DNA from: Daucus carota subsp. sativus
Taxonomy: Eukaryota > Streptophyta > Magnoliopsida > Apiales > Apiaceae
Assembly: GCF_001625215.2 (NCBI RefSeq)
Contig: NC_030383.2
Coordinates: 10,552,779 to 10,616,778 of the forward strand
Direction: 5' to 3'
DNA: 64,000 nucleotides
Below are positions 38,634 through 54,369 of this stretch, piece by piece (the stretch's first letter is position 1; each line of letters begins with the position of its first letter). The position numbers and the translations under genes are program-made. The notes under the pieces were generated by a model that saw only the letters and a program-made list of their open reading frames with translations, did no database searches and had not been told where the DNA came from.

Positions 38634-38649
38634 ACGCACTACAAAAAAA

Positions 38650-39080
38650 CAGGACAAAACCGACCGGATAAAACCGACCGCCAAAAAAAAGCGTCGATTT
38701 AAAACCGACCGGACTAAATCGGTCGGTTACGTCGCAGAGCGACGTCGTTTTGCCTTGCTGGCAAGGCCAGGCATTTTATAACCGACCGGGACAACAGTGG
38801 TCGGGTTTACGGCTGACGTGTACAATGCTTAACCGACCACAGCATCGGTCGGTTATGTGTTTTTAAAGAATTTAATTGATTTTTAAATAAACTATGAGTT
38901 TAAACGACGACGTGTGATCGCGAAAACGAAAACCGACCGCCAGCGGTCGGTTTTATCCTTATATATTCATATAATTTTTTTTATTTATGTGGAAAATGGA
39001 TAACATAAACTCGTCAGGGAAGGGGTTACGACGCCGTTTTTGTATAAATATCATAACCGACCGGCACCGGTCGGTTTTAA
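38650..39080. repeat. Left subterminal AACCGACCG motif array
   Basis: Many copies of AACCGACC(G/A) and its complement CGGTCGGTT occur, several as head-to-head pairs such as AAACCGACCG...CGGTCGGTT. By analogy with En/Spm these are TnpA-binding subterminal repeats. Each contains a CpG, as in the methylation-sensitive Spm sites. The array runs up to a TC-rich leader (39105-39200) that looks like the start of a + strand transcript with a possible donor at ATTGAAAG|GTATAT (39302). Confidence 0.85.
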
Positions 39081-39669
39081 CTCGTAATTTTGATTAATAT
39101 GATTCTCCCCCACCAGTCTATCTTTCTTTTTCCCCAACTTATTTTCTTCCTCTTCTCTTCCCAAAAATCTCTCTCTACTCCCCTCTCTCTGTGTCTCTGC
39201 CAACTAATCTCTATGCACATGAAGAATATGGATTTTAAACTCCGTTCGGTCTCGATTGGATTTTGGATATCAATCTCAATTAGGGTTCAATCTCAATTGA
39301 AAGGTATATCGATCTCTCCCTCAGTTTCTCTTTAGCATTTTGTGTATGTATATATATATGTGTTTTTGTATGTATGTATATATATGTTTCTTTATGTATA
39401 TGATTTTGAATTTGAGTTTGATTTTGAATTTGAGTTTGATTTTGATTTTGATTTTAGTTTCTCTTTAATTGTGAATGTTCTTTGAATTCGATTTTTAGTC
39501 GAGTTTGTAAGCATGAATGCATGATAATGAAGAAGGAGTCCGTTTTTGAAGCAAAATATATAATCATTTCATTCATATTCATAATTTATAAGAACACCCA
39601 TAAACATATATATTTATAAATACTTAAATAAAATTCATAATAAAACACTTGAAAACAACTGTAACAACT

Positions 39670-39984
39670 TCAAATCCCCGAAGGGCCCGCCTTGCCTTTG
39701 CCTTTGCCCGCCTTGTCCTCCTTGTCCTCGTCCTTCTTTTGTTGCTTCAACTTCGCGGTCATCATCCCCGCGAAGCGAATCAACCACTCTTGCTTGCGTA
39801 GCGCTGCCCGCCTTTCTTCCTCTAACCGCTCCTGTTCGAGATAGTGATCCATTTGCATGAACATGATTGGGATTCTATAATCCCAATCCATTTCCACCCA
39901 AATGTCATCGGGGATGTCGAGAATGCCATAGGAGACTCCATCGATTGTGACGGTGTTGTTGTTGTAGTTGATTGTGACTGCCAT
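39670..39984 (-). CDS. Small minus-strand CACTA protein, 104 aa, unknown
   Basis: The frame runs from the ATG at 39984 (MAVTINYNNNTVTIDGVSYG) to 39670. It begins with a short beta-type segment and continues with PDDIWVEMDWDYRIPIMFMQ and a strongly charged helix (EQERLEEERRAALRKQEW). It ends in a lysine-rich tail (DKEDKAGKGKGKAGPSG) whose GKGKGKA run resembles the N-terminus of the TnpA-like protein. A TATA box (TATAAAAA on the minus strand, 40048-40041) lies about 60 bp upstream. An in-frame ATG at 40065 would add 27 residues but precedes a usual TSS distance. I do not recognise the protein. Confidence 0.6.
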   Translation of the reverse strand: MAVTINYNNNTVTIDGVSYGILDIPDDIWVEMDWDYRIPIMFMQMDHYLEQERLEEERRAALRKQEWLIRFAGMMTAKLKQQKKDEDKEDKAGKGKGKAGPSGI

Positions 39985-40040
39985 TGTAATTTTGATTGTG
40001 ATTGTAGTAGTTGTAGTTAATTTGTGGTAGATTAGAGCCC

Positions 40041-40048
40041 TTTTTATA
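40041..40048 (-). promoter_or_regulatory. TATA box of the small minus-strand CACTA gene
   Basis: TATAAAAA on the minus strand (within GTGCTATAAAAAGGGC), about 57-64 bp upstream of the ATG at 39984. This spacing allows a short 5' leader. Confidence 0.55.
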
Positions 40049-40409
40049 GCACAAGTGTTAAGCAACTAAAAAGTCTCTACATTGAATTGTATTAGTGTTA
40101 CAATCCCAAGAGTCACCCTTCCATTACCTTGTATTGAATTCTATGAGTTACACTCCCAATATTCATACCCCTTGATTGCTTAGGAATTTGATAGGATTTT
40201 GAAATTTAAATATTATTAAGATTAATTTTATTTGATTTTGGACTTTGAATTTGATTTACTCATCTATTTTATTTGATTTTGAGTTTGATTTGATTTTGAT
40301 ATATTTTTTTGAGTTTGATTTTATAAAGCGTGTGAGTTTAATTTGTTGTTCGCATAAATTTTAATTTGAAATATTTTGAAGATTAAACAATTTTTTAGGG
40401 AGTTATCAA

Positions 40410-40493
40410 TGACGGGACTGGTTTTTATCAGACGACTTGTGAATAAATGGTTGCGTTTGTTATGAGTTTTCTGATATAAAACCAGTTCCGTCA
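40410..40493. repeat. Perfectly placed hairpin inside the CACTA element
   Basis: The arms TGACGGGACTGGTTTTTATCAGA (40410-40432, shown here as one motif with key core GGGACTGGTTTT) and TCTGATATAAAACCAGT-TCCGTCA (40470-40493) are inverted repeats with two or three mismatches and a loop of about 37 nt. It lies about 30 bp before the internal motif array. Confidence 0.75.
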
Positions 40494-40521
40494 AATTATT
40501 TTTTTTAAAAATTTAAGCGAC

Positions 40522-41105
40522 AAAACCGACCGACTAAAGTCATAACCGACCGAGGTTACCATTGCCGTAACTCAGTAAACCGACCGATTGGGTCATAACC
40601 GACCGTTTATAGCATAATCAAGTGCAGAAAACCGACCGATATGGTGGTCGGTTTTGTTCTTATTAGTTTTATTTATCGATTTATTTGGCTAAGTCTTGAG
40701 AATGCTCTGCGGCACCGAAGAACGACGTCGTTTGCATACTATAAAACCGACCGACCTCGGTCGGTTTTGATTATTTTATTTTTATTTCTTGATTTATTTT
40801 GGCTAAGTGCTAAGACGACGTCGTTTGTGCAAAATAAAACCGACCGAATTGGTGGTCGCTTTTGGGCGGTCGGTTTAATATGGTCGGTTTTAAATGCTGG
40901 GAAAGTAGCGTTCTGCTCGTTAACCGACCAGAAACGGACGTTCGTTTTATTTTGCAACATAACCGACCACCCGGTGGTCGGTTTTGACCCCCATTGTATA
41001 TTTTATTATTTAAAAAACGGCGGGTAGGTGCGTTTTAGCAGTGATACGACATCGTTTTGTTTAAATAGACATAACCGACCGTTTATTTTTGATAGTCGGT
41101 CGGTT
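40522..41105. repeat. Internal AACCGACCG array upstream of the TNP2 gene
   Basis: This is a second dense block of AACCGACCG/CGGTCGGTT motifs, about 1.9-2.5 kb inside the element and ending about 320 bp before the TNP2 start codon. It is mixed with copies of (A)ACGACGTCGTTT (about 40720 and 40812, with an ACGACATCGTTT variant at about 41044). The position suggests a promoter role for the gene that follows. Confidence 0.85.
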
Positions 41106-41429
41106 TTGTGTGAGCTAAAAAGTTAAAAACTACTCTCCACTTTCATTATACAACAAAGCTTGGAAATTATCAAATATCAAAAGAAGAAGAAGGAGAAGAA
41201 GAAAAAGAAGGAGAAGAAGAAAAAGAAGAACAAGAAAGGAAGGAATCAATTATCAAAAACAAAGTAAGCTACTCTTCTTAATTATGATCACATTGTGATT
41301 TTTATTTATTTTGTTGAGAATAATTTGTATGAATGTTGTTTATATAAATTTCTTGGATAATTTGTAATGTGTATATGTTTTATGTTATGTTAATACATAC
41401 GTGCGTGGTGTGTATATATATTTATGTAG

Positions 41430-44400
41430 ATGACAAATCTTGATCGAAGTTGGATTAGTAACCGGTTGCAACGAGATAAAATTACTCTTAATTTAGAATA
41501 TAGGGAAGGTGTAGAGGAATTTTTGAATTTTGCAAGCTTGAAAATGGAGGGAGGTATGATGAAATGTCCTTGCAAGCTTTGTAAAAATTTGAATTGGTTA
41601 GGGGTAGATGATGTTCGGTTTCATTTGATATCCGAGGGTATGATGGAGAGTTATACGGTATGGACTTCGCACGGAGAGGTTTCGCAAAAAAATAAAAAGC
41701 GAAAATCATGTGAAACGCGAGAATGTCGTAGGGTAGTAGATGATCATGTTGATATCAACTCCATGTTACATGATTTTGCCGGTTCGAATCATGAATTTTA
41801 TGATACCACGGGTACTACTAATGTTGAAGAAGCTCCTAATGATAGTGCTAAAGAATTTTATAAGGCGATTGTTGAAAATGGTGCTCCTATTTATCCCGGT
41901 TGCACAAAATTTACAAGATTAAGTTTTACCGCAAAATTGTTGGAGTTCAAAAATGCGTCTAATTGTAGTGACAAAGCCTTCAACAGTTTGATTAAGATCA
42001 TTATGGACGTGTTACCAAAAAAGCACACATTACCCGAGTCTTATTATGAGATGAAAAAGGTTATGAAAAGTTTAAGGGTGGAATATGAAAAAATTGATGT
42101 GTGCGAGAATGATTGTATGCTATTTTATGGAGATGACAAAGATAAAATTGTGTGTGATATATGTAGTTGTAATCGATATTTGGATAAATCAAGGAAAAAT
42201 GGTAAGAAAATTCCGAGAAAGATTTTAAGACATTTTCCTTTGATTCCCCGACTGCAACGCTTATATATGTCGGCACATACATCCAACCACATGAGGTATT
42301 ACAAAAATCGAGAGGTCAATGAAAAAGAAATTTCTCACCCTGCGGATGGAGACGAATGGAAGAATTTTGACCTCCGATATCCATCATTTGCTCAAGAAAT
42401 TCGTAATGTAAGACTTGGTTTTGCGACCGATGGTTTCAACCCGTTTGGGAATACGGGTAACAAAACATATAGTGTATGGCCCGTGGTAATTGTTGTGTAT
42501 AATCTTCCGCCGTCCATGTGTATGAAGAGACCGTATATGTTTTTGACGGATATTATACCGGGTCCGGAGAGTATTGGGAAAAATATTAATATATATCTTA
42601 GACCTCTCATTGATGAATTGAAGACATTATGGTATACCGGAGTGCAAACATATGACCAATCTCTAAAACAAAATTTTACCATGAGAGCGGCTCTTATGTG
42701 GACAATCAGTGATTTTCCTGCCATGAGTATGGTAAGTGGTTGGTCGGGGAAAGGAAAGCTTGCATGTCCAGTGTGTTTGGGAAGTGTGCAGGGGTTTCAG
42801 TTAAAACATTCTGGGAAATGTTCTTTTCATGGCACTAACCGAATTTTTCTTGAACCTAATGATCCATTGCGTAAGAAGAGTAGCTTGTTTGACCATTCGG
42901 AAAAAAGGTTGTGGCGTGGACGCTTATCCGGGGAGGAAGTTAAAACTTGGATTGATAGCATAGACTTTCCACCACCCGGAAAGACTAACAAAAAGAAAAG
43001 AAGTGATGGATATGGGGTTGAGCATCATTGGACTCATGCCCCGATGTTCTATGATCTCCCTTATTGGTCTTCACATAGTTTGCGACATTCCATTGATATC
43101 ATGCATACCGAAAAAAATGTGTTTGAGAACATATTTTTTACCATTGTTGGGGGCAAGAAGTCAAAAGATCACCACAAGGCAAGGTCGGATTGCAAACACT
43201 TCGGTGTGTTGCCTCATTTGTGGATTGATGAAAATGGCAAAAAACCAAAAGCTCCGTACTCTCTTAGTAGAAAACAACTCAAACTTCTATGTCAGTGGAT
43301 TGAGTCGTTGAAACTTCCAGACGGTTATGTCTCAAATATATCTCGTTGTTGCAATGCTAAGGAGTGTAAGTTTTTTGGATTTAAATCGCATGATTGTCAT
43401 ATTTTCCTTCAAAAATTGTTGCCTCTATCAATTCGCGAGCTTCTACCGGGACCAATTGTGGATGCCTTGACAATGATTTCCAATTTTTTTCAAGAATTAT
43501 GTTCATCTGTGATTACGAGATCCGACTTGGATCTAATGACGAAATCGGTTATTAGAGCTTTGTGTTTATTGGAAACAATTTTTCCTCAGACTTGGTTTGA
43601 TTCGATGGAGCATTTGGTAATACATTTAGCAGAAGAAATTAGACTAGCGGGACCCGCTTATTGGCATTGGATGTATCCAATTGAACGGTTATTAGGGAAA
43701 TTTAAACAAAAGGTTGGTAATAAAGCGCGAGTCGAGGGTTCAATTGCCGAACGTTATATGGAAGAGGAGATTCTTAATTTTTGTTCCTTCTACTTTGCCA
43801 CGGACTCAATTCATAATAAAATACGTCGCAATGAAGCTCGTTTTGATGGTGATGGCTCCGAAAAATTAGAAGTTTTTGAATATCCAATTGAATGTCTTGG
43901 TAAAGAGGGAAGTCGTTATTTGACCGATAAAGAGCGAAAGTTAGCAGAAGAATATGTACTTCTAAACTCTCCAGAAATTCAACCTTATCTAAGGTATCAT
44001 TTATAATTTTTTAGGTTTATTTAAATTTATTTAAATTCATTTTAATTTATTATAATTTATTGATAATTTATTTTAATTTATTTATTATAATTTATTTCAG
44101 GCGGTTTACAGATCGTGTTATGAGTCAACGTCCGGAGACAACACCTCAACAATTAGATTGTTACATAAAGACCCGATTTAAAGATTGGTTATTGAAAAAG
44201 GTATATATTGTTTTTTCAATTTCTTTTGAAATTTGAATATATTTCATCAATATAATTTTAATATTTTTAGGTTGGACGAAATGATGTAAACCGACCTCTT
44301 CTTCAATATTTGTTTGAGGGACCGGCTATGCGGGTAATGACATTTGAGACTTGTAAAGTCAATGGATACAAATTTTGTACGAGAACATCTTCCGGTTCCG

Positions 44401-44990
44401 GTGTCATTGTTAAGGGCACTTCACATGATAACAATAGTGATTATTATGGACAATTGGAGGAAATTGTCAAGCTTATTTATCGAGGAGGAAATTATGTATA
44501 TTTATTCAAATGTATATGGTTTGATAGTGTCGGAAATGGTGTTGTGATTGATAAAAATAGGGTCGTGACCGTGGATATTACTTCAAGATTGAAGTCGGAT
44601 GAGATTTTTATTTTGGCTAGTCAAGCTTCCCAGGTTTACTATGCTCCCAGTGTATTGAATCCACATGGCAAATATTTTACGGTCGTCAAGTCTAAAAGTC
44701 GTCCGATAAGCGAATCTATCAAAATATCAAATGATATTGAAGAAGCTTATCAAGAAGATAGATCAAATGCTACTAGTGCATTCTCTATATTTGTTGATTT
44801 TGCACAATATGGTTCCTTACCGTTCGTTCGACATGAAGAAGATGAACAAGAAGAAGAAGACAAAGATGAAGAAGAGGATGATGATGAAGAAGAAGAAGAA
44901 GAAGAAGAAGAAGAAGAAGAAGAAGAAGAAGAAGAAGACAAAGATGAAGAAGAGGATGATTATGATGATGGATTTGATGAAATTGATTAA
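41430..44990 (+). CDS. CACTA TNP2-type transposase, 1127 aa
   Basis: Three exons, 41430-43993, 44101-44200 and 44271-44990, give 3384 nt. Domains in order: Transpos_assoc (5-80, RSWISNRL...CPCKLCKN), TNP2/Transposase_21 core (about 285-560, with MRYYKNREVNEKEISHPADG, RLGFATDGFNPFGN, MRAALMWTISDFPAMS, SLRHSIDIMHTEKNVFENI), DUF4218 (about 665-770, with FPQTWFDSMEHLVIHLAEEI and PIERLLGKFKQKVGNKA) and DUF4216 (about 950-1015, YVYLFKCIWFDSVGNGVVID). The last about 60 residues are almost all Glu/Asp, encoded by a (GAA)n tract. A 5'UTR intron is likely (AACAAA|GTAAGC at 41262 to TGTAG|ATG), so the ATG at 41430 follows the acceptor directly. This is the TnpD-like catalytic subunit. No internal stop or frameshift was seen. 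Confidence 0.95.
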
Positions 44991-45163
44991 TATAATTGAA
45001 TATTTTATGATGTTGTTGAATTATTGATTATTAATTTGTTAGTTTCATGAAATTATTGATTATTGATTTGTTAGTTTGTTGGATGGTTGTTGGTTTTGTC
45101 GCAGGTAAAGGCAGAGAAAGGAAACAACAAAACCTTGTTTTTTTTGTTAAAATACGCAGAAAA

Positions 45164-45350
45164 CCGACCGACTAGTCACATAACCGACCGCTTTTACCAT
45201 TCAATACGCAGAAAACCGACCGAACTGCTATATAACCGACCACGGTTACCATTCGGTAAAGCAGAAAACCGACCGATTGCAAATATAACCGACCACGGTT
45301 ACCATTCGGTAAAGCAGAAAACCGACCGATTGCAAATATAACCGACCGAC
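45164..45350. repeat. Internal AACCGACCG array with exact 53-bp duplication
   Basis: This motif block follows the TNP2 gene. It includes two head-to-tail copies of a 53-bp unit beginning ACCATTCGGTAAAGCAGAAA (about 45247-45299 and from 45300). Each unit holds two GACC motifs. Confidence 0.85.
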
Positions 45351-45355
45351 TTTCC

Positions 45356-46081
45356 CTATATATTTTTAAAAAATCCGGTTCGCCTAATTTTCACGTTACG
45401 AAGTCACACATGTTAATTATAAACTTGACTAAGATGTTTTAAATTTTTAGACAATTCAAAAAACATTTTTATATGTACGGATCCCCTAAACAGAAGACTA
45501 ATCATATACCAGAAGTCTTATTTTGAATTACCTCGTTCACTCTTAATTATTCAAAAATTAGATGTTTTATTATTTAAACGATCCAACCGTACGGATGTTA
45601 ATAAAATAATCTCATCAACGTTGAGACAAAATTTCAGATGATTTCGATGAATCGAAATACACCTTTATAACCTTTTTATTGTGAAAATATACATAAATAA
45701 AATTTTAAATTAAGAAAATATTTTTAAAAAACCCGGTTCGACTAAATTTCACGTTACGAAGTCACACATGTTAATTATAAACTTGACTAAGATGTTTTAA
45801 TTTTTTAGACCTTTTAAAAAATATTCTTATATGTATGGATCCCCTAAACAGAAGACTAATCATATACCAGAAGTCTTATTTTGAATTATCTCGTTCACTC
45901 TTAATTATTCAAAAATTGATGTTTTATTATTTAAACGATCCAACCGTACGGATGTTAATAAAATAATCTCATCAACGTCGACACAAAAATTCAGATGATT
46001 TCGATGAATCGAAATACACTTTTATAACGTTTTTATAATAATACTTTATATAAACAAAATATTAAATTAATAAAATATTTT
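45356..46081. repeat. Two-copy direct repeat of about 362 bp
   Basis: 45356-45716 and 45719-46081 are adjacent direct copies with only scattered differences. They share long runs such as TCACGTTACGAAGTCACACA, GATCCCCTAAACAGAAGACT and AACGATCCAACCGTACGGAT. They lie between two AACCGACCG blocks upstream of the TnpA-like gene. No coding frame was found. Confidence 0.92.
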
Positions 46082-46089
46082 CCCAAAAA

Positions 46090-46273
46090 CACAAAACCGA
46101 CCGACTATACAGTAAAACCGACCGACCTTGAAAAATTACGCGGAAAATGAATTTTTTCGTGAAAAATTAAAACACCCGCGCGACAGAAACGACGTCGTTT
46201 GATGGTACTGCACAGATTTCCAGGTCAAAACCGACCGGATTGCCGGTCGGTTTTGGTGCGTCAGTATATAAAC
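46090..46273 (+). promoter_or_regulatory. Predicted promoter of the TnpA-like gene
   Basis: AACCGACCG motifs (46096-46130 and 46225-46255) and an ACGACGTCGTTT palindrome (46189-46200) lie immediately upstream of TATATAAAC (46265-46273), followed by a TC-rich leader. The arrangement matches a core promoter loaded with the element's own terminal motif. Confidence 0.65.
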
Positions 46274-47292
46274 AAAAAAAAGCCCCCCTTTCCTCTTTTA
46301 TTCTCACACGAACGACAGTACTCTGCACCCCTTTCCTCTCCAAACTCTTTCAAACTCCAAACTCGAATCAAACCCTCTCCTAACTCTTTCAAGGCAAGAA
46401 TCAAGTGCAATGGCGGCAAGAATCAAGAATCGGAAACCCTCTCCAAAATCCTCTTCAATGGTAGAATCCGAAACCCTCTCCTAACTTTTAATTTGTGTTA
46501 GTATAGAGCTTAAATTTGTGTTAGTATAGAGCTCTATTGAACTTCAATTTGTTTGATTTGTTTAGTTTTCAAGCTTTTATATGTATGCATTGTATGTATA
46601 TAAAATTTGTATATGTTAGTTTGGAAATATACATGCAAGTTCTTGTCGTCGGTTATGTCATGAGAATGAAAACAATAGGTTTTAGTTTGTGTATGTTAGT
46701 TTTGGTTTGTATATGTTTTAGTTTTAGTTTGTATATGTTAGTTTTAGTTTGTATATGACCGTTTTGGTTTGTATATGTTAATTTGTATATGTTAGTTTGG
46801 AAATCTCTGTTTTTTATTTGTTTTTATATTTTTGTAATTTTTAGTTTGTACTCACATTCATAAGGAGGGCTTGGAATTTGGTTTTGTGTTTGTATTAAGG
46901 GGTTGTGGTTTGCATTTGGCATTTTGATATAATTAAGGTGTTGTGGTTTGCATAATTGGTTGTGAATGAAATTTATGTGATATAATTAAGGGGTTGTGGT
47001 TTGTATTTTGGCATTTTGATTTATAAGGGGTTGTGGTTTCATTCATTTTGGCGTTTATATGTTCAAAAATGAGTCGATTCATAAGGTGTTGTGGCTTGCA
47101 TAATTGGTTGTGAATGAAATTTATGTGATATAATTAAGGGGTTGTGGTTTGCATTTTGATTCATAAAGGGGTTGTAGTTTCCATTTAAAGTCGATTATTT
47201 TTTTATTCATATTCTAACCAATGGTGTTTATGGTGTTTGATTAGGGCACCTTGTGGTGGTTTGTCATCCTTGTGGTGATGATCATTGCCTTA

Positions 47293-49421
47293 ATGGCAAG
47301 AAAAGGCAAGGGCAAGGGGAAGGCCAAGGAGACAACCAAAGGCAAGGGAAAAGGGAAAGCCAAGGAGACAACTTCCACTCGGAAGGGTAAAGGAAAGTCT
47401 AGCACCTTGGCTATACGTGATGAGCCAACTGATTCGGATGAAGGCGGGGAGAATCCGAATGAAGAGGAAGTTCCAAGACGAAGGGTAATTAGGAGGCCAC
47501 GATCCCATTCAGCCGGTTTGTTTGGAAAAGTCCCTCCGAAACCAATCCGTATCAATATTTCAGGAGGACAGTAAGTCTACTTGTAGTAACTTATATATAT
47601 ATATATATGTATATCTATCTATCTGTATATATATATATATGTATCTTGCACTTGTTTAAATTTTGTTGACATACATATATATGTACATATAATCTCTTTT
47701 CACATTTTGGTAGTATTGAAGATGATCAAGCAAAGAAGACTTTGCTTGCTATTGTTCGTGAAAGGTGGCCCGTTGGACATTACACGTTCACCGACATTGT
47801 TGAACATGATGGTGAATGGCTAAAACACGTAGTCGAGGAATTTAATGTAAGCTACTCTTCTTATGCTCACATCGTGATTTGTATGCATGCTTTTTTATTT
47901 ATTTGTATTATGTGTAAATAGTCTAACCATATGTATGTAATTTATCTTGATTTTATTATAATTGTAGTTATATTTCAAGCAACAAAAGGGACAAAGCCGG
48001 TCCGAAGCAAAAAATATAATTGAGAAGCATATCAAGAACACAATAAAGAGGACGTTGAATGAGCTCAAGACAAATATTGAGCAAAAATCAAAGGAAAGCG
48101 GAATATCAAAATTGAGTTTAAGACCTGGATATTGGTCTGAACTTTTTTGGAAGGATTTATTAAATTATTGGGAAAAGAATGAGGGGCACTTGCATAGGTC
48201 ATCCGTTGGATCTACGAACCGCAAGAACGTCGAGCGGTTGCATAGTGCCGGTGCCCGGTCTTTTAATAAAGTGAAGGAGGTATATATAAATATCTATTAT
48301 CATACACACCTTAATTTCACTTTTAAGATTTAATTCACATATATATTATATTGATGATTTAAATTGTTTTTGGAAGGAAATGAAAAGGAAGGAACGTGGA
48401 AAGAATCCAACTCGCCTTGAAGTATGGAACCGGACGCATACAAGGGTTGGAAGTGATCCCGAGCACCCCGTGTATACCACGCCTGCTGCAATGGCCATAG
48501 CGGTAATTAAATGATTGTCTTGTGGTTTTTTTTTAAAGTTTCAATGTCCATTTTACTTTTTAAGTTGTTTAATGTACTGATTGATGCACATTTCTCTGTA
48601 GACACGATATGCTTCTATTCTAGAAAGCAGGCCGGTGTCGGTTACACAAACAGGGGATAGAGACGAGCCCTTGGAATGGTGGTTGTCAGCAACCGGAGTT
48701 CCCGAAGGCAAAAAGCCTAAGAAGGACTACCTTGTTGGATTCCCCGAGGCTCGTGCTAGTCAACTTATTCCGACTCTTGCCTCACGTTACAGGGATTCAA
48801 CAAGAGGCGAAGCCGGTGGATCTTCCGGTCAGAGACAAGAAGCCGTCATTCCCGACAATGTGTACCTCTCGGTCGTGCGCAATGTGCTCAATGAGGTCCG
48901 TGCGAACCCCCTTCAATTTCAGCGACAAATGTCTGAAGAAGAGATCGCGAATTTTGCAAAAACCGCACTAGAGGCCTCCGATCCAGCTGCCGATCCAAGT
49001 ACAAGGGTTCAATGGAATTCTATGATTGGTGGGGAGATGGTACACATTGTGGGGTCGATGGTCGAGGATATACTCCTCAAAATGGAAAGGAAGGTTGAAG
49101 AGGTACGAATTCATATTTGTTATCTACTTGTATTGATCGAGTATGCTTATTTTCTTATTGGTTGTCATTGTCTATTATATGTGCAATTAGGAAAAGGAAC
49201 GCAGACTCGCAGCGGAGAAGGATTATACTGATCCAGAGGAGCTGTCGGAGGAGGAACGCGGGGGACCCGAAGCTGGTGCTGATGCGGGTGCCAATGCTAG
49301 TGCTGCTTCGGGAGCGGATGCTAGTGCTGCTTCGGGAGCGGATGCTAGTGCTGCTTCCGGAGCGGGTGCTACTGCCGCTGCGGATGGAGCTGCTTCCGAT
49401 TCAGATGTTACATTAGATTAG
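47293..49421 (+). CDS. CACTA TnpA-like protein (Transposase_24 / Ptta-En-Spm family), 526 aa
   Basis: The exons are 47293-47570, 47714-47846, 47968-48279, 48377-48502, 48602-49102 and 49191-49421 (1581 nt in phase). The N-terminus is lysine/glycine-rich with two GKGKGKAKETT units, and a basic SHSAGLFGKVPPKPIRI stretch follows. The middle matches the plant Transposase_24 family: RPGYWSELFWKDLLNYWEKN, SVGSTNRKNVERLHSAGARS, KNPTRLEVWNRTHTR, HPVYTTPAAMAIATRYASIL. The C-terminus is alanine-rich, with a 24-bp unit (ASAASGAD) repeated three times. An alternative start at 46410 (MAARIKNRKPSPKSSSM, exon 46410-46460) could splice in phase to 47246 and add a hydrophobic GTLWWFVILVVMIIAL segment. I prefer MARKGKG as the start. 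The likely role is to bind the AACCGACCG motifs and bring the ends together. Confidence 0.88.
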
Positions 49422-49661
49422 TTTGGCTTTTGAATATTTGTGTTTTGAATATTGTGTTTAAGTTGGATTTGGAATTTGGTTAATGCTTGTGTTTTGCCCT
49501 TGTAGACAATTATAAGTTTGATGTTTGGGATTGTAGTTATGGTACATTTTGTTGTTATATATGGTGTTATGGTTTATGTATTTTGGATATTGTTGATTGT
49601 TGGTAGCAGGTATGGCAGTATATAGAAACAGCAGGATTATTTTTTTTTTGATAGAAAACCC

Positions 49662-50425
49662 AGAAAACCGACCGACTTAAGACAAAACCGACCGTCCTTA
49701 CCATTCAATTCACAGACAAAACCGACCGACGTATACATAACCGACCATGGTTACCATTCAAAAAAGCCAGAAAACCGACCGATTGCTTACTTCTCGGTCG
49801 GTTATCTTTGGCTGATCGGTCGGTTATACACGGTCGGTTTTAATCCCTGCAAGCGTTCTGGTCGTTAACCGACCATGTCCTGTCGGTCGGTTATGGGAAA
49901 CCGACCGAACGCGGTCGGTTATAAGGTCATTGTTTTCAGTTTGACTTTTCTGGTCAAACGTTTATAACCGACCACCCCCGGTCGGTTTTAGTGAGCTGCA
50001 GCAACTTTGACTTTTTGGTCAAGATATTTTAACCGACCACCGACGGTCGGTTTTAGTTCCCCCAACAAATTTGACTTTTTTGGTCAACAGATTATAACCG
50101 ACCACATACGGTCGGTTATATTATTCTTATATCGATTGACCATATTTTGGTCAAACATGAAAAACCGACCGACTCCGGTCGGTTTTAGTTTACACGTGGC
50201 TGTGGCGTCCACGTGGCTCCAGATGGCATTGCTACAGGGCCCAGGTAGCGACTTTCTTAAATAAGCAAAACCGACCGACATTCCGGTCGGTTTTCGTCTT
50301 TAAACCCGACCAATAGCTGATAACCGACCAGGTTACAACCGACCAGCTTCTCCGGTCGGTTTTAGTGTTTAAACCGACCGTTTATTCTTTTAACCGACCG
50401 TTTTTGGCGGTCGGTTTTGTCCTGT
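49662..50425. repeat. Right subterminal AACCGACCG array with W-box-like pairs
   Basis: This is the densest motif block in the element, with many head-to-head pairs (AACCGACC...GGTCGGTT). Between them, at about 49938, 50008, 50070 and 50136, are four copies of an inverted pair of the type TTGACTTTTTTGGTCAA, spaced about 62-70 bp. TTGAC(C/T) is the WRKY-factor W-box core. Confidence 0.88.
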
Positions 50426-50440
50426 TTTTTTGTAGTGACG

Positions 50441-50803: not shown

Positions 50804-53800
50804 ATGTTGGGATTTCGTGTTCATGATCGTGTTTTCAGTTGTGTATTCATATATCTTCTGGTATCGTCGTTCTGTAATGCAGCAAGCGGGAACCATGCAA
50901 AGCTCCATGCTGTAGGAGGTATTGTTGATTACTCCTCTGTTACTGGCAAACAACAAAAAATAGCCATGGAGATGGCTATAGTAGATTATCATGCTCAGGT
51001 GCGGCAATTGCATCCTCGCGTGGTCTTACATGTTATGGACTCCCGGAAGGATCCTCTGAGAGCAGCTTCTTTGGGTAATCTATCTTCATCATTCTGAATT
51101 CTATAAATTTATGTGATGAAGCACAACTCTAGAGCTTAAAGTATTTAGTTTTCTAGCTTGTAAAGATGCATGCAACAAGCTTAGGCAAGGCAAAGTACTC
51201 CATAAGTACTCCATGTATACAGTATAAGCCTCTTCATTTGACTTGCATATAGATACAGAGAGATTAATGGAAAATTAGTCAACCCCCTCAACAACTTCAT
51301 AAGGGCGGCAGGTTACGAATAAAAAATTTAGTATAAATTTGTATATTTTATAAGTTTAATTAGTTTAGCAAGCGCATGCTGTTGTAGAACTCAGCATGCG
51401 CACAGTACATACTAAATAGTATGTGTAGCATTCAATGGGCCTGTTTGGTTGAGAGAAGCAGAAGTTGCTTCTGGCTTCTGTTTCTCTTGACCCGTTTGTG
51501 TAAAGAAGCAGAAACACTTTTAAAAAGCTGAGAATGCTAACTTCTCTCTCAGTTTCTGCTTCTTTTCCAAACACTTTATTAACTCCTTTACTTCTCACTT
51601 CTACTCCACTTCTTTATTATAAGCAAAAAATCACTTCTTTTAAGTTAACCCAAACGGCCCCAATGAAGCCTTCTTTGCAGCTTTTAACAGAGCTGAATAC
51701 TTAACAAGAATGCTTATGTGAAGTTCTTAAGAAATTTGTAGTTGGTAAAATCCATACTTAACGCTAAAAAATTTACCTTGTATATTTACAGCTAAGAAAC
51801 TAATCAAAAAGGAGAACGTAAGTGTGATCATAGGCTTGGATAGATATGATGAGGCTGTCATTGTTGCTCAACTTGGGAACACATCACAAGTTCCAGTTCT
51901 TTCATTGGCCAGTGACGTCCCCTTTTCGGCCCCTAGCCTATGGCCATTTCTGGTAAATATGGCTCGCTCCCAACGCGCTCAGATGAAAGCGGTGGCAGCC
52001 ATAGTTCAAAGCTGGCAATGGCGAAAAGTAACTGTCATTTATGAAGATACTCCATCAAGTGTTAATGGAATCTTTCCCGACCTTATTGAAGCGCTTCAAG
52101 AAGTGAACGCAGATATTGATTATTATCTCCCTCTTCAAGCCTTTCCTTTATATTCCATACAAGAAAAGTTGAGGGATCTCCAAAGAAGACAGAGTAGAGT
52201 TTTTATTGTCCACACTTCAAGTAGTCTCGCGATCAATATTTTCCTGGAAGCCAAGCGATTGAAAATGATGAAAAAAGAGTTTGTGTGGATCACCACGGAT
52301 AGCATCAGTAATTTTATTGATTCTTTTAATTCCTCGACAATCTCTGCCATGCAAGGTGTCCTGGGAGTAAAGGGTTTCTCTGCCTTTTATGTTCAAAAGC
52401 GATACAAGGATTTCTCCATGCGTTTCAAGGCTAAATTTCGATCAGAACACCCCACTCAGAAATATATGCAGCCTGGAACTTTTGCTCTGAATGCCTATGA
52501 TGCTTTATACACTGCTGTATTAGCAATTGAAGGGAAACAAAATCCAAAATCTCTTGCACATAACTTAATCAACCATACTTCAGTGGATGGGGAGAAATTA
52601 CTGGCAAGAATTTTACAGAGTAAATTTATGGGATTAAGTGGAGAGGTGAATTTTAAAGGAGGAACTCTGGCTCCATCAAAAATTTTCCAGATTGTTAATG
52701 TCATTGGTAAAAGTTATCTACGGCTCGGATATTGGTCTGAAGGATTAGGATTCTCAATGAACATTAACAATGGAACTAAGTACAGCAAGTCTATGAAGAT
52801 ATTGGGGCAAGTAAATTGGCCAGGACGTTCTTCGACAACTCCTAAAGGATGGGCCATTGCAACAAGCAGCAACAGACTAAGAATAGGAGTACCTGGTCGC
52901 AACACTTTCAAAGAATTCGTGAATGTGACTTATGCACATCCCGGGAAGCCAATTGTAGGAGGATGGTCCATTGATGTGTTTAAAGCTGTTGTTCAGAATT
53001 TACCATACAACTTACTGTATGACTTTTTCCCCTACAATGGAACTTATGATGCACTTGTTCAGGAGATTAGTCTCTCGGTAATTACTTGCTCTATGCCAGA
53101 CTCTCGCGTATATTTGTGCTTCTTAAGTCACTTCTACCAAGTTTTTTAATATTCTAACATTGTTAATTTGCATGATTGAGCTCTTGAAGACTTTTGACGC
53201 GGTGGTCGGGGACACAAATATTGTGGCTAACCGCTGCGCTTATGCAGAGTTCTCACAGCCTTACTCTGACTCTGGTCTACAGCTGCTGGTCTACTCAAAG
53301 TCGAAAACATCTGCTGCTAGAGCATGGCTGTTCATGAAGCCATTCACAACATGCACCTGGATTTCCACGGCTCTTGTCAACTTATATAGTGGTTTTGTTG
53401 TGTGGTTCATTGAGCGCCAGACAAATAGAGACTTCGAAGGAAGTTGGTTCAAACAATGTGGAACAATCATTTGGTTGGCCTTCACTACGCTCTTCACATC
53501 TTTACAAGGTAAGTTTTCCATTAGTTTCATAGTCAGTCCACTAGTCAACTCAATGGTCATAACCATTAATCTTTATAATCGCGATTGCAGGTGACAAATT
53601 GCATAGCAACTTGTCTCGAATGGCTGCAGTAATCTGGCTCTTTGTGGCCTTAGCTATAACTTCTAGTTACACAGCTAGTTTGACCTCGTTCCTCACATAT
53701 CAGAATTTTGATCCGCCAGTGACTACTGTTGAAACATTAATAAGGACTGGCGCGAAAGTTGGGTGTAACGGTAATTCTTTTGTCGTCAAATATCTGCAAC

Positions 53801-54369
53801 ATGTGTTAGATTTCGACCCACAAAACATCGTGAGGATATACAAAGAGGATGATTATCCCGAGGCCCTTAGGAGCGGACAGATTGCTGCTGCTTTTCTCGA
53901 AGTCCCATATATCAAACTCCTCCTTGCTAAAAATTGCAAAGGCTTTAAGACCGGAGAGTCGTACAAAGTCGGAGGTTTTGGATTTGTGTTTCCTAAAGAT
54001 TCTCCAATGCTTACGGACATTTCTCAAGCGGTTCTTAATGTGTCAGAGAGTGGAACACTACGAAAGCTGGAGAAGACTATGTTGGACTCAAACAAATGTT
54101 CAGAATCTGATGACAAAGATGATTATAGTCTTGGACTTGACAGCTTCTGGGGTCTCTTTGCGATCACTGGAGGAGCCTCAACTATAGCTTTTCTGTTCTA
54201 TTTCTTTCCTTGTCGCATCCCAAAATGGTCTGGTTTTAGCAGCAGAGTGTTCTCAGAAACAGAGCCCAAGCATGAGACGCACAACCTACCAGGGAGATTT
54301 GCTTCATCACAACATGATCCGGACCAAGATGAAAGAGTCTTATTTGATGCAGAAATGAAAAACCAATGA
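50804..54369 (+). CDS. Glutamate receptor-like cation channel (GLR), 884 aa
   Basis: This is a plasma- or endomembrane ligand-gated Ca2+-permeable channel. Exons are 50804-51074, 51792-53077, 53190-53508 and 53591-54369 (2655 nt). A signal peptide (residues 1-28, VFSCVFIYLLVSSFCNA) precedes the extracellular amino-terminal domain (about 32-420, with AMEMAIVDYHAQ and WQWRKVTVIYED). The ligand-binding S1 lobe is split by intron 2 (GGWSIDVFKAVV...TFDAVVGDTNIVANR). M1 (about 575-593, VNLYSGFVVWFIE), the pore loop and M3 with SYTASLTSFLT (about 651-661) follow, then S2 and M4 (GLFAITGGASTIAFLFYFF). Length and order are complete for a plant GLR. The clade is not assigned. The first intron carries a MITE at 51437-51661. 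Confidence 0.95.
51437..51661. mobile_element. MITE in GLR intron 1 (GGGCC(T/G)GTTTGG termini)
   Basis: The left end GGGCCTGTTTGGTTGAGAGA and the right end read inward, GGGGCCGTTTGGGTTAACTT, are inverted repeats. The interior is rich in CTTCT/AGAAG. The terminus type is common in plant hAT-like MITEs. The TSD is not clean (CAAT shared), so the superfamily is left open. Confidence 0.65.

Follow-up and report, generated by a model that had tools for sequence, protein, structure and literature searches.

In En/Spm transposons the repeats are confined to the two ends of the element, an arrangement which is not a defining rule. The available sections of one account (PMC2613891) describe TNPA of En/Spm as binding subterminal repeats and as acting both as a positive and as a negative regulator, and describe both En/Spm proteins as products of alternatively spliced transcripts. 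For VANC21, the accessible part of PMC5735166 reports targets in tandem repeats that differ from one related element to the next, and other motifs for a related VANC. Here we analyze a 64-kb stretch of the carrot genome (C3:10552779-10616778, hereafter the window), in which a CACTA (En/Spm-type) transposon of 11,801 bp spans positions 38637-50437. Unlike En/Spm, this element has arrays of its terminal motif between its genes as well. The internal blocks are probably cis-regulatory operator/promoter arrays, which would be bound by the TnpA-like protein of the element and would provide separate promoters for the TNP2 transposase gene and the TnpA-like gene.

The carrot element is a variant of the CACTA kind, while its regulation as set out here is a proposal. 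Like En/Spm, Tam1, Tpn1, Tgmt* and Tdc1, it has a CACTA terminal inverted repeat (TIR), a 3-bp target-site duplication (TSD) and a TNP2-type transposase; Tdc1, also from carrot, is set beside it by these class features and not by sequence. The ends at 38637 and 50437 agree at 23 of the 23 bases compared. The TSD is ACG in the window copy and TTA in a sister (C3:49656605-49668401) that is 99.8% identical to the window element. The transposase domain was recognized as PF02992 (E 3.8e-74). As in En/Spm and other plant CACTA elements, a second gene encodes a PF03004 protein (E 7e-15 on the spliced reading), and short direct and inverted repeats occupy the subterminal regions. Two further departures from En/Spm are a small reverse-strand gene in addition to these two, found in subfamily A of the carrot element, and the seemingly separate promoters. 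The features of the element, in window coordinates, are as follows.

38637 to 50437, plus strand: CACTA element, with the TIR CACTACAAAAAAACAGGACAAAACCGACCG at each end and the TSD ACG at 38634-38636 and 50438-50440.
38658 to 39076, no strand: left terminal motif block, 10 exact 9-mers, with TATAAATA (about 39043) next to its final palindrome, 39055-39076.
39673 to 39984, minus strand: gene0, a small accessory open reading frame (ORF) of 104 aa that appears to be under purifying selection, with TATAAAA about 64 bp before its ATG.
40522 to 41105, no strand: internal block 1, preceding TNP2; right-end-like direct repeats, then palindromes.
41430 to 44990, plus strand: TNP2 transposase gene (PF13963, PF02992, PF13960; DUF4216 in a later ORF).
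45162 to 45350, no strand: internal block 2a, on the 3' side of TNP2, with AACCGACC occurring eight times, always as a direct repeat.
45360 to 46081, plus strand: sequence of about 360 bp present twice in tandem (93%), separating block 2a from block 2b.
46090 to 46255, no strand: internal block 2b, the putative promoter half preceding the TnpA-like gene; its palindrome is at 46229-46252, and TATATAAA lies at about 46265.
47293 to 49421, plus strand: TnpA-like gene, six predicted coding exons (GT-AG reading), 526 aa, PF03004 Transposase_24 (E 7e-15).
49660 to 50437, no strand: right terminal motif block and TIR, 21 exact 9-mers.

The exact motif AACCGACCG, counted on both strands, occurs 10 times in the left block, 11 times in 40522-41105, six times in 45162-45350, four times in 46090-46255 and 21 times in the right block. 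All 52 matches thus lie in five blocks situated between or outside the genes of the element, with none in the four intervals between blocks and none in the rest of the 64 kb; under a first-order Markov null for the element, the mean was 0.08 and the maximum 2 in 300. Since 21 of the 52 (11 + 6 + 4) are internal, the repeats of this element are not confined to its ends. Genome-wide, exact matches number 5979, compared to 1514 for a reversed control pattern. The original prediction, made from the window alone, had placed dense internal blocks before the TNP2 and TnpA-like genes. These blocks are real, their coordinates were right to a few bases, and they precede both genes and are conserved in other copies.

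Genome-wide searches covered 441 Mb in 11 contigs and returned at least 54 matches to TNP2, comprising near-identical sisters of the window element (subfamily A), a subfamily mostly at 75-80% identity (B) and eight matches at 58-59% (C). The loci analyzed are the best 30 of these 54 matches, and 53 of 1345 first-look candidates were scored, so that copy numbers are lower bounds; the window's own copy (L001) was left out of the sister counts, and the blocks of subfamily C were examined in one of its eight listed copies. The shorter motif AACCGACC follows the same distribution, with 67 matches in blocks vs 1 in the rest of the window element, where the lone outlier sits within a TNP2 exon (44289), 50 vs 1 in one B element and 27 vs 0 in one C element. 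A block precedes TNP2 in 14 of 14 sister loci, with 9 to 25 motifs each, and a block behind TNP2 was found in 11 of the 14 within the stretch examined; L007 has three motifs only at the position of block 2a. In subfamily B, blocks lie both before and behind TNP2 in 15 of 15 loci, whose TNP2 is 76-78% identical to that of the window element. One complete B and one complete C element have left, internal and right blocks, and the position of the block between TNP2 and the TnpA-like gene is retained across TNP2 identities of 59-77%. A comparison of sister copies had been set beforehand as a check, and the internal blocks were recovered not only in the sisters but in two more divergent subfamilies. 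In the B and C elements examined, the left block directly precedes TNP2, and both the gene0 unit and block 1 are absent; these were therefore probably gained in the A lineage.

Within the blocks, the common motif spacings are 20 bp in direct pairs and 14-18 bp in head-to-head pairs. The blocks are polar: direct repeats open on the 3' side of a gene, and palindromes lie on the promoter side. A TATA-like box lies no more than about 20 bp from the last palindrome at 6 of the 7 promoter-side edges examined in three subfamilies, in a scan that used loose patterns on AT-rich DNA without a chance control. One of these is TATATAAA beside the last palindrome of block 2b, where the block before the TnpA-like gene had been described as ending next to a TATA box. 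Block 2a is similar to the opening part of the right-end block (77% over 207 bp, flank included). The tandem duplicate of about 360 bp separates it from block 2b, and we thus treat the two as belonging to a single interval, which lies between TNP2 and the TnpA-like gene.

We compared substitution in motifs and in the spacers between them, in copies that are related by descent and with BLAST alignments that motifs may anchor. Across 14 sisters aligned to the window in blocks 1 and 2a, 14 of 2437 motif positions differed (0.57%), compared to 497 of 7163 spacer positions (6.94%) and 262 of 34865 TNP2 coding positions (0.75%). Divergence outside the motif was 4.5% at one base and 10.4% at two bases. 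As a control, 80 shifted masks gave 3.0-11.6% (mean 7.6%); this control and the motif counts per copy speak against an alignment artefact without eliminating that risk. In subfamily B (14 loci), the internal block gave 14/1606 for motifs (0.87%), 777/4133 for spacers (18.8%) and 0.69% for coding sequence. Terminal blocks show the same contrast (A left 1/605 vs 112/2454; A right, eight copies, 1/880 vs 136/2218; B left 8/1120 vs 153/3618). Thus, the motif changes about as little as coding sequence does, whereas the bases right next to it turn over.

We also looked for traces of transposon ends inside the element. No TIR-like sequence above shuffles was found in the four internal intervals in either orientation (p 0.235-1.0, 200 shuffles each). 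A strict-pattern search returned 91 TIR ends, from which 18 pairs under 30 kb were paired by eye; seven of these, under 4 kb (1.2-3.8 kb, L038-L044), are taken as short derivatives. A 3-bp TSD flanks 6 of the 6 derivatives analyzed together, all of which retain the left block, and L044 is flanked by TAT on both sides. The smallest right end consists of 132 bp with seven motifs (L038). Internal blocks are missing from five of the seven derivatives, while L042 retains three block 1 motifs and L044 a middle block. Together with the missing TIR trace, this indicates that the internal blocks are neither ends nor required in cis for movement.

The position and polarity of the blocks, their presence in three subfamilies, the slow motif within fast spacers and the lack of a TIR trace, together with the TNPA precedent of En/Spm, argue for operator/promoter arrays. 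Each internal block would combine a 3' half of direct repeats, resembling the start of the right end, with a promoter half of head-to-head palindromes and a TATA-like box. The TnpA-like (PF03004) protein would bind the motif at the ends, pairing them for TNP2, and the same protein would bind the internal motifs, switching the TNP2 gene and its own gene; one protein would thereby couple mobility and expression. Each of the two genes would be transcribed from a promoter of its own, instead of both from one left-end promoter with alternative splicing. In all three subfamilies, the TNP2 ATG lies immediately 3' of a TAG, which makes a splice acceptor likely, and with it a non-coding leader derived from the adjacent block. 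The prediction of three separately promoted units, each putatively under TnpA feedback, finds partial support in the blocks before TNP2 and the TnpA-like gene, with their palindromes and TATA-like edges. It is not supported for the left unit, where the only conserved ORF found, gene0, lies on the minus strand and has a TATAAAA of its own, which speaks against three units in a row.

Several points weigh against these operator/promoter arrays. The exon borders and promoters given here were deduced from the sequence only. In subfamily C, the edge of the internal block is without a TATA-like box, and three of the 14 sisters (L009, L011 and L024) showed no block 2a, which may be lost, displaced or outside the stretch examined. 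In subfamily A, the left block faces a region in which the one conserved ORF runs on the opposite strand, so the rule that a block is the promoter of the next gene is not clean. Behind the left end, a possible splice donor at about 39304 could yet supply TNP2 in the En/Spm manner, and the available text of PMC8195511 describes contiguous tnpD-tnpA transcripts for a candidate active CACTA pair of lettuce. Between young copies, motif conservation may in part reflect recombination of blocks and alignment anchoring, and the likeness of internal and right arrays could stem from gene conversion without function.

gene0 is the sole conserved ORF that we found between the left block and block 1 (minus strand, 39984 to 39673). 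Its core, ...QEWLIRFAGMM..., is conserved, and it has 69 matches in the genome with fragments counted. The ratio of nonsynonymous to synonymous divergence (dN/dS, NG86) was 0.11-0.45 in 35 of 36 pairs among nine sequences, with one pair giving no ratio, several saturated dS values and YN00 failing for most pairs. It is therefore probably a real, constrained accessory gene. No Pfam match was found for it, and an AlphaFold model made without an alignment had a mean predicted local distance difference test (pLDDT) score of 59.7. Some short derivatives keep gene0; others have lost it or have it cut. With gene0 on the minus strand, block 1 may serve two divergent genes. A relative of gene0 at 42-45% identity occurs in a different multicopy sequence (L046, C9:39752000-39753700), in 1.7 kb of which AACCGAC and CACTACAA were not found. 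Another element (L012/L047, C6:19296234-19307705) has TNP2 at 95% identity but gene0 at 57%, and its units thus look recombined between lineages. For TNP2, dN/dS was 0.16 between subfamilies A and B, and 0.63 between the window copy and its close sister L008, the latter value resting on a dS of 0.008. A long GAA/GAT tract at 44850-44960 gives the TNP2 reading frame an acidic poly-E C-terminus.

Among other explanations, element-wide anti-silencing fares best, and we place it somewhat below an even chance. The arrays would here be landing sites for an element-encoded, VANC-like demethylating protein, with a primary role in chromatin. As described in the accessible parts of PMC5735166 and PMC10398659, VANDAL21 and VANDAL6 of Arabidopsis, with their VANC proteins, likewise have an element-specific short motif in intergenic and terminal non-coding, fast-evolving repeats. 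The carrot element shares this layout, which resembles that of VANC21 targets in tandem repeats (PMC5735166, as far as available), bar the one AACCGACC in the TNP2 exon. The motif includes two CpGs, it is stable while spacers turn over fast, internal and right arrays cluster by subfamily, and the arrays of subfamily C additionally carry TTTCCGACC. Activation of Spm by TnpA correlates with demethylation, according to the part of PMC10398659 available. On the other side, the match of the protein is to PF03004, no relation to VANC came to light (none was specially sought), and the palindromes on the TATA side suggest promoter control. VANDAL elements also belong to another superfamily with other proteins, the carrot gene products matching CACTA families and not Mutator-like transposase or VANC, and it is in the carrot element that the internal motif also forms CACTA subterminal arrays. 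VANC/VANDAL is the functionally closest known system in the sense of working alike only. A VANC-like role fits the layout as well as operators do, and the two may be the same act. More tentatively, and with the balance of our judgment somewhat against it, this CACTA element could have evolved, convergently with VANC/VANDAL, a distributed code in which one protein and the same 8-9 bp motif serve transposition, gene switching and element-wide anti-silencing, with motifs fixed and spacers replaced.

An old fusion of two or three elements, which would make the internal blocks former right-plus-left junctions, is unlikely. It had been raised in the original prediction, and some features fit it: the internal blocks start right-end-like and finish promoter-like, and the B and C elements without the gene0 unit and block 1 fit the addition of a unit in the A lineage. 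No TIR remnants accompany the blocks, gene0 is oriented the other way, and duplication of arrays would yield the same picture.

It is quite doubtful that the blocks are a neutral by-product, that is, end sequence pasted inside by duplication or conversion with the right end, then kept alike by conversion and without function. Internal and right arrays are alike at 84.9% in B, 66.4% in A and 63.6% in C, compared to 58.3% between the internal arrays of A and B; local similarity reaches 85% over 387 bp in the B element, beside the 77% over 207 bp of the window. A tree joins the internal with the right array within B (support 1.00), C (0.99) and A (0.86). The margin in A is small (A right to B right 62.3% vs 66.4%), and A block 1 stands apart from the other A arrays and joins C with a support of 0.28. 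That internal arrays are closer to the right array of their own subfamily points to concerted change or repeated duplication of arrays within elements. However, conversion alone would homogenize the spacers too, and these diverge 12- to 22-fold more than the motifs, with a sharp edge at the motif. The retained position between TNP2 and the TnpA-like gene also speaks against a by-product.

ACCGAC is the core of the dehydration-responsive element (DRE). It lies within every AACCGACCG, and RCCGAC counts track the blocks, as expected if host DREB/CBF factors made the genes stress-inducible. This is improbable: conservation covers a longer unit, in many cases a palindrome, whose density is just as high at the transposition ends, and TTTCCGACC of subfamily C breaks what we take to be the DRE consensus. 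Finally, that the internal blocks are decoy or alternative transposition ends, as had also been suggested, can be all but dismissed, since the shared motif and the likeness of their 3' halves to the right-end start are set against intervals free of TIR-like sequence and five of seven short derivatives that have no internal blocks, although the blocks may have a titration (decoy) effect on the binding protein.

Other sequences were noted in and around the element. A second recurring palindrome, ACGACGTCGT, which we presume could be a host bZIP-type site, occurs twice in block 1 (about 40722 and 40814), at about 46189 in block 2b and once in the B left block; neither block 2a nor the right blocks contained it, nor did subfamily C. 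Block 1 also has a weak TATA-like TTAAATA at about 41061. The right block contains, at 49940-50160, paired TTGAC...GGTCAA sites in repeats of about 65 bp, which we take to be W-box-like; TTGAC[CT] occurs 8 times in 781 bp of the window right block, twice in the B right block and not in that of C. The duplicated unit of about 360 bp (45360-46081) has 73 genome matches, many at family loci (checked in part), and some diverged matches are listed only once. By eye, a MITE-like (miniature inverted-repeat transposable element) hairpin at 40408-40495, with arms TGACGGGACTGG/CCAGTTCCGTCA, adjoins block 1, and a similar stretch comes after a CACTACAA in L044. ORFs at 50804-54369, just downstream of the element, look glutamate-receptor-like by eye.

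In the literature searched, with thin coverage of subscription journals and sources available in part, no report of internal end-motif arrays in CACTA elements was found, which is weak evidence of novelty. If the proposed arrays are correct, the protein that pairs the ends is also a dedicated regulator of separately promoted genes. This would link two halves of transposon biology that have been studied mainly in maize Spm. As a multicopy crop family of low divergence, with a precise predicted binding site, these carrot elements would allow Spm-type regulation and VANC-type anti-silencing to be compared.

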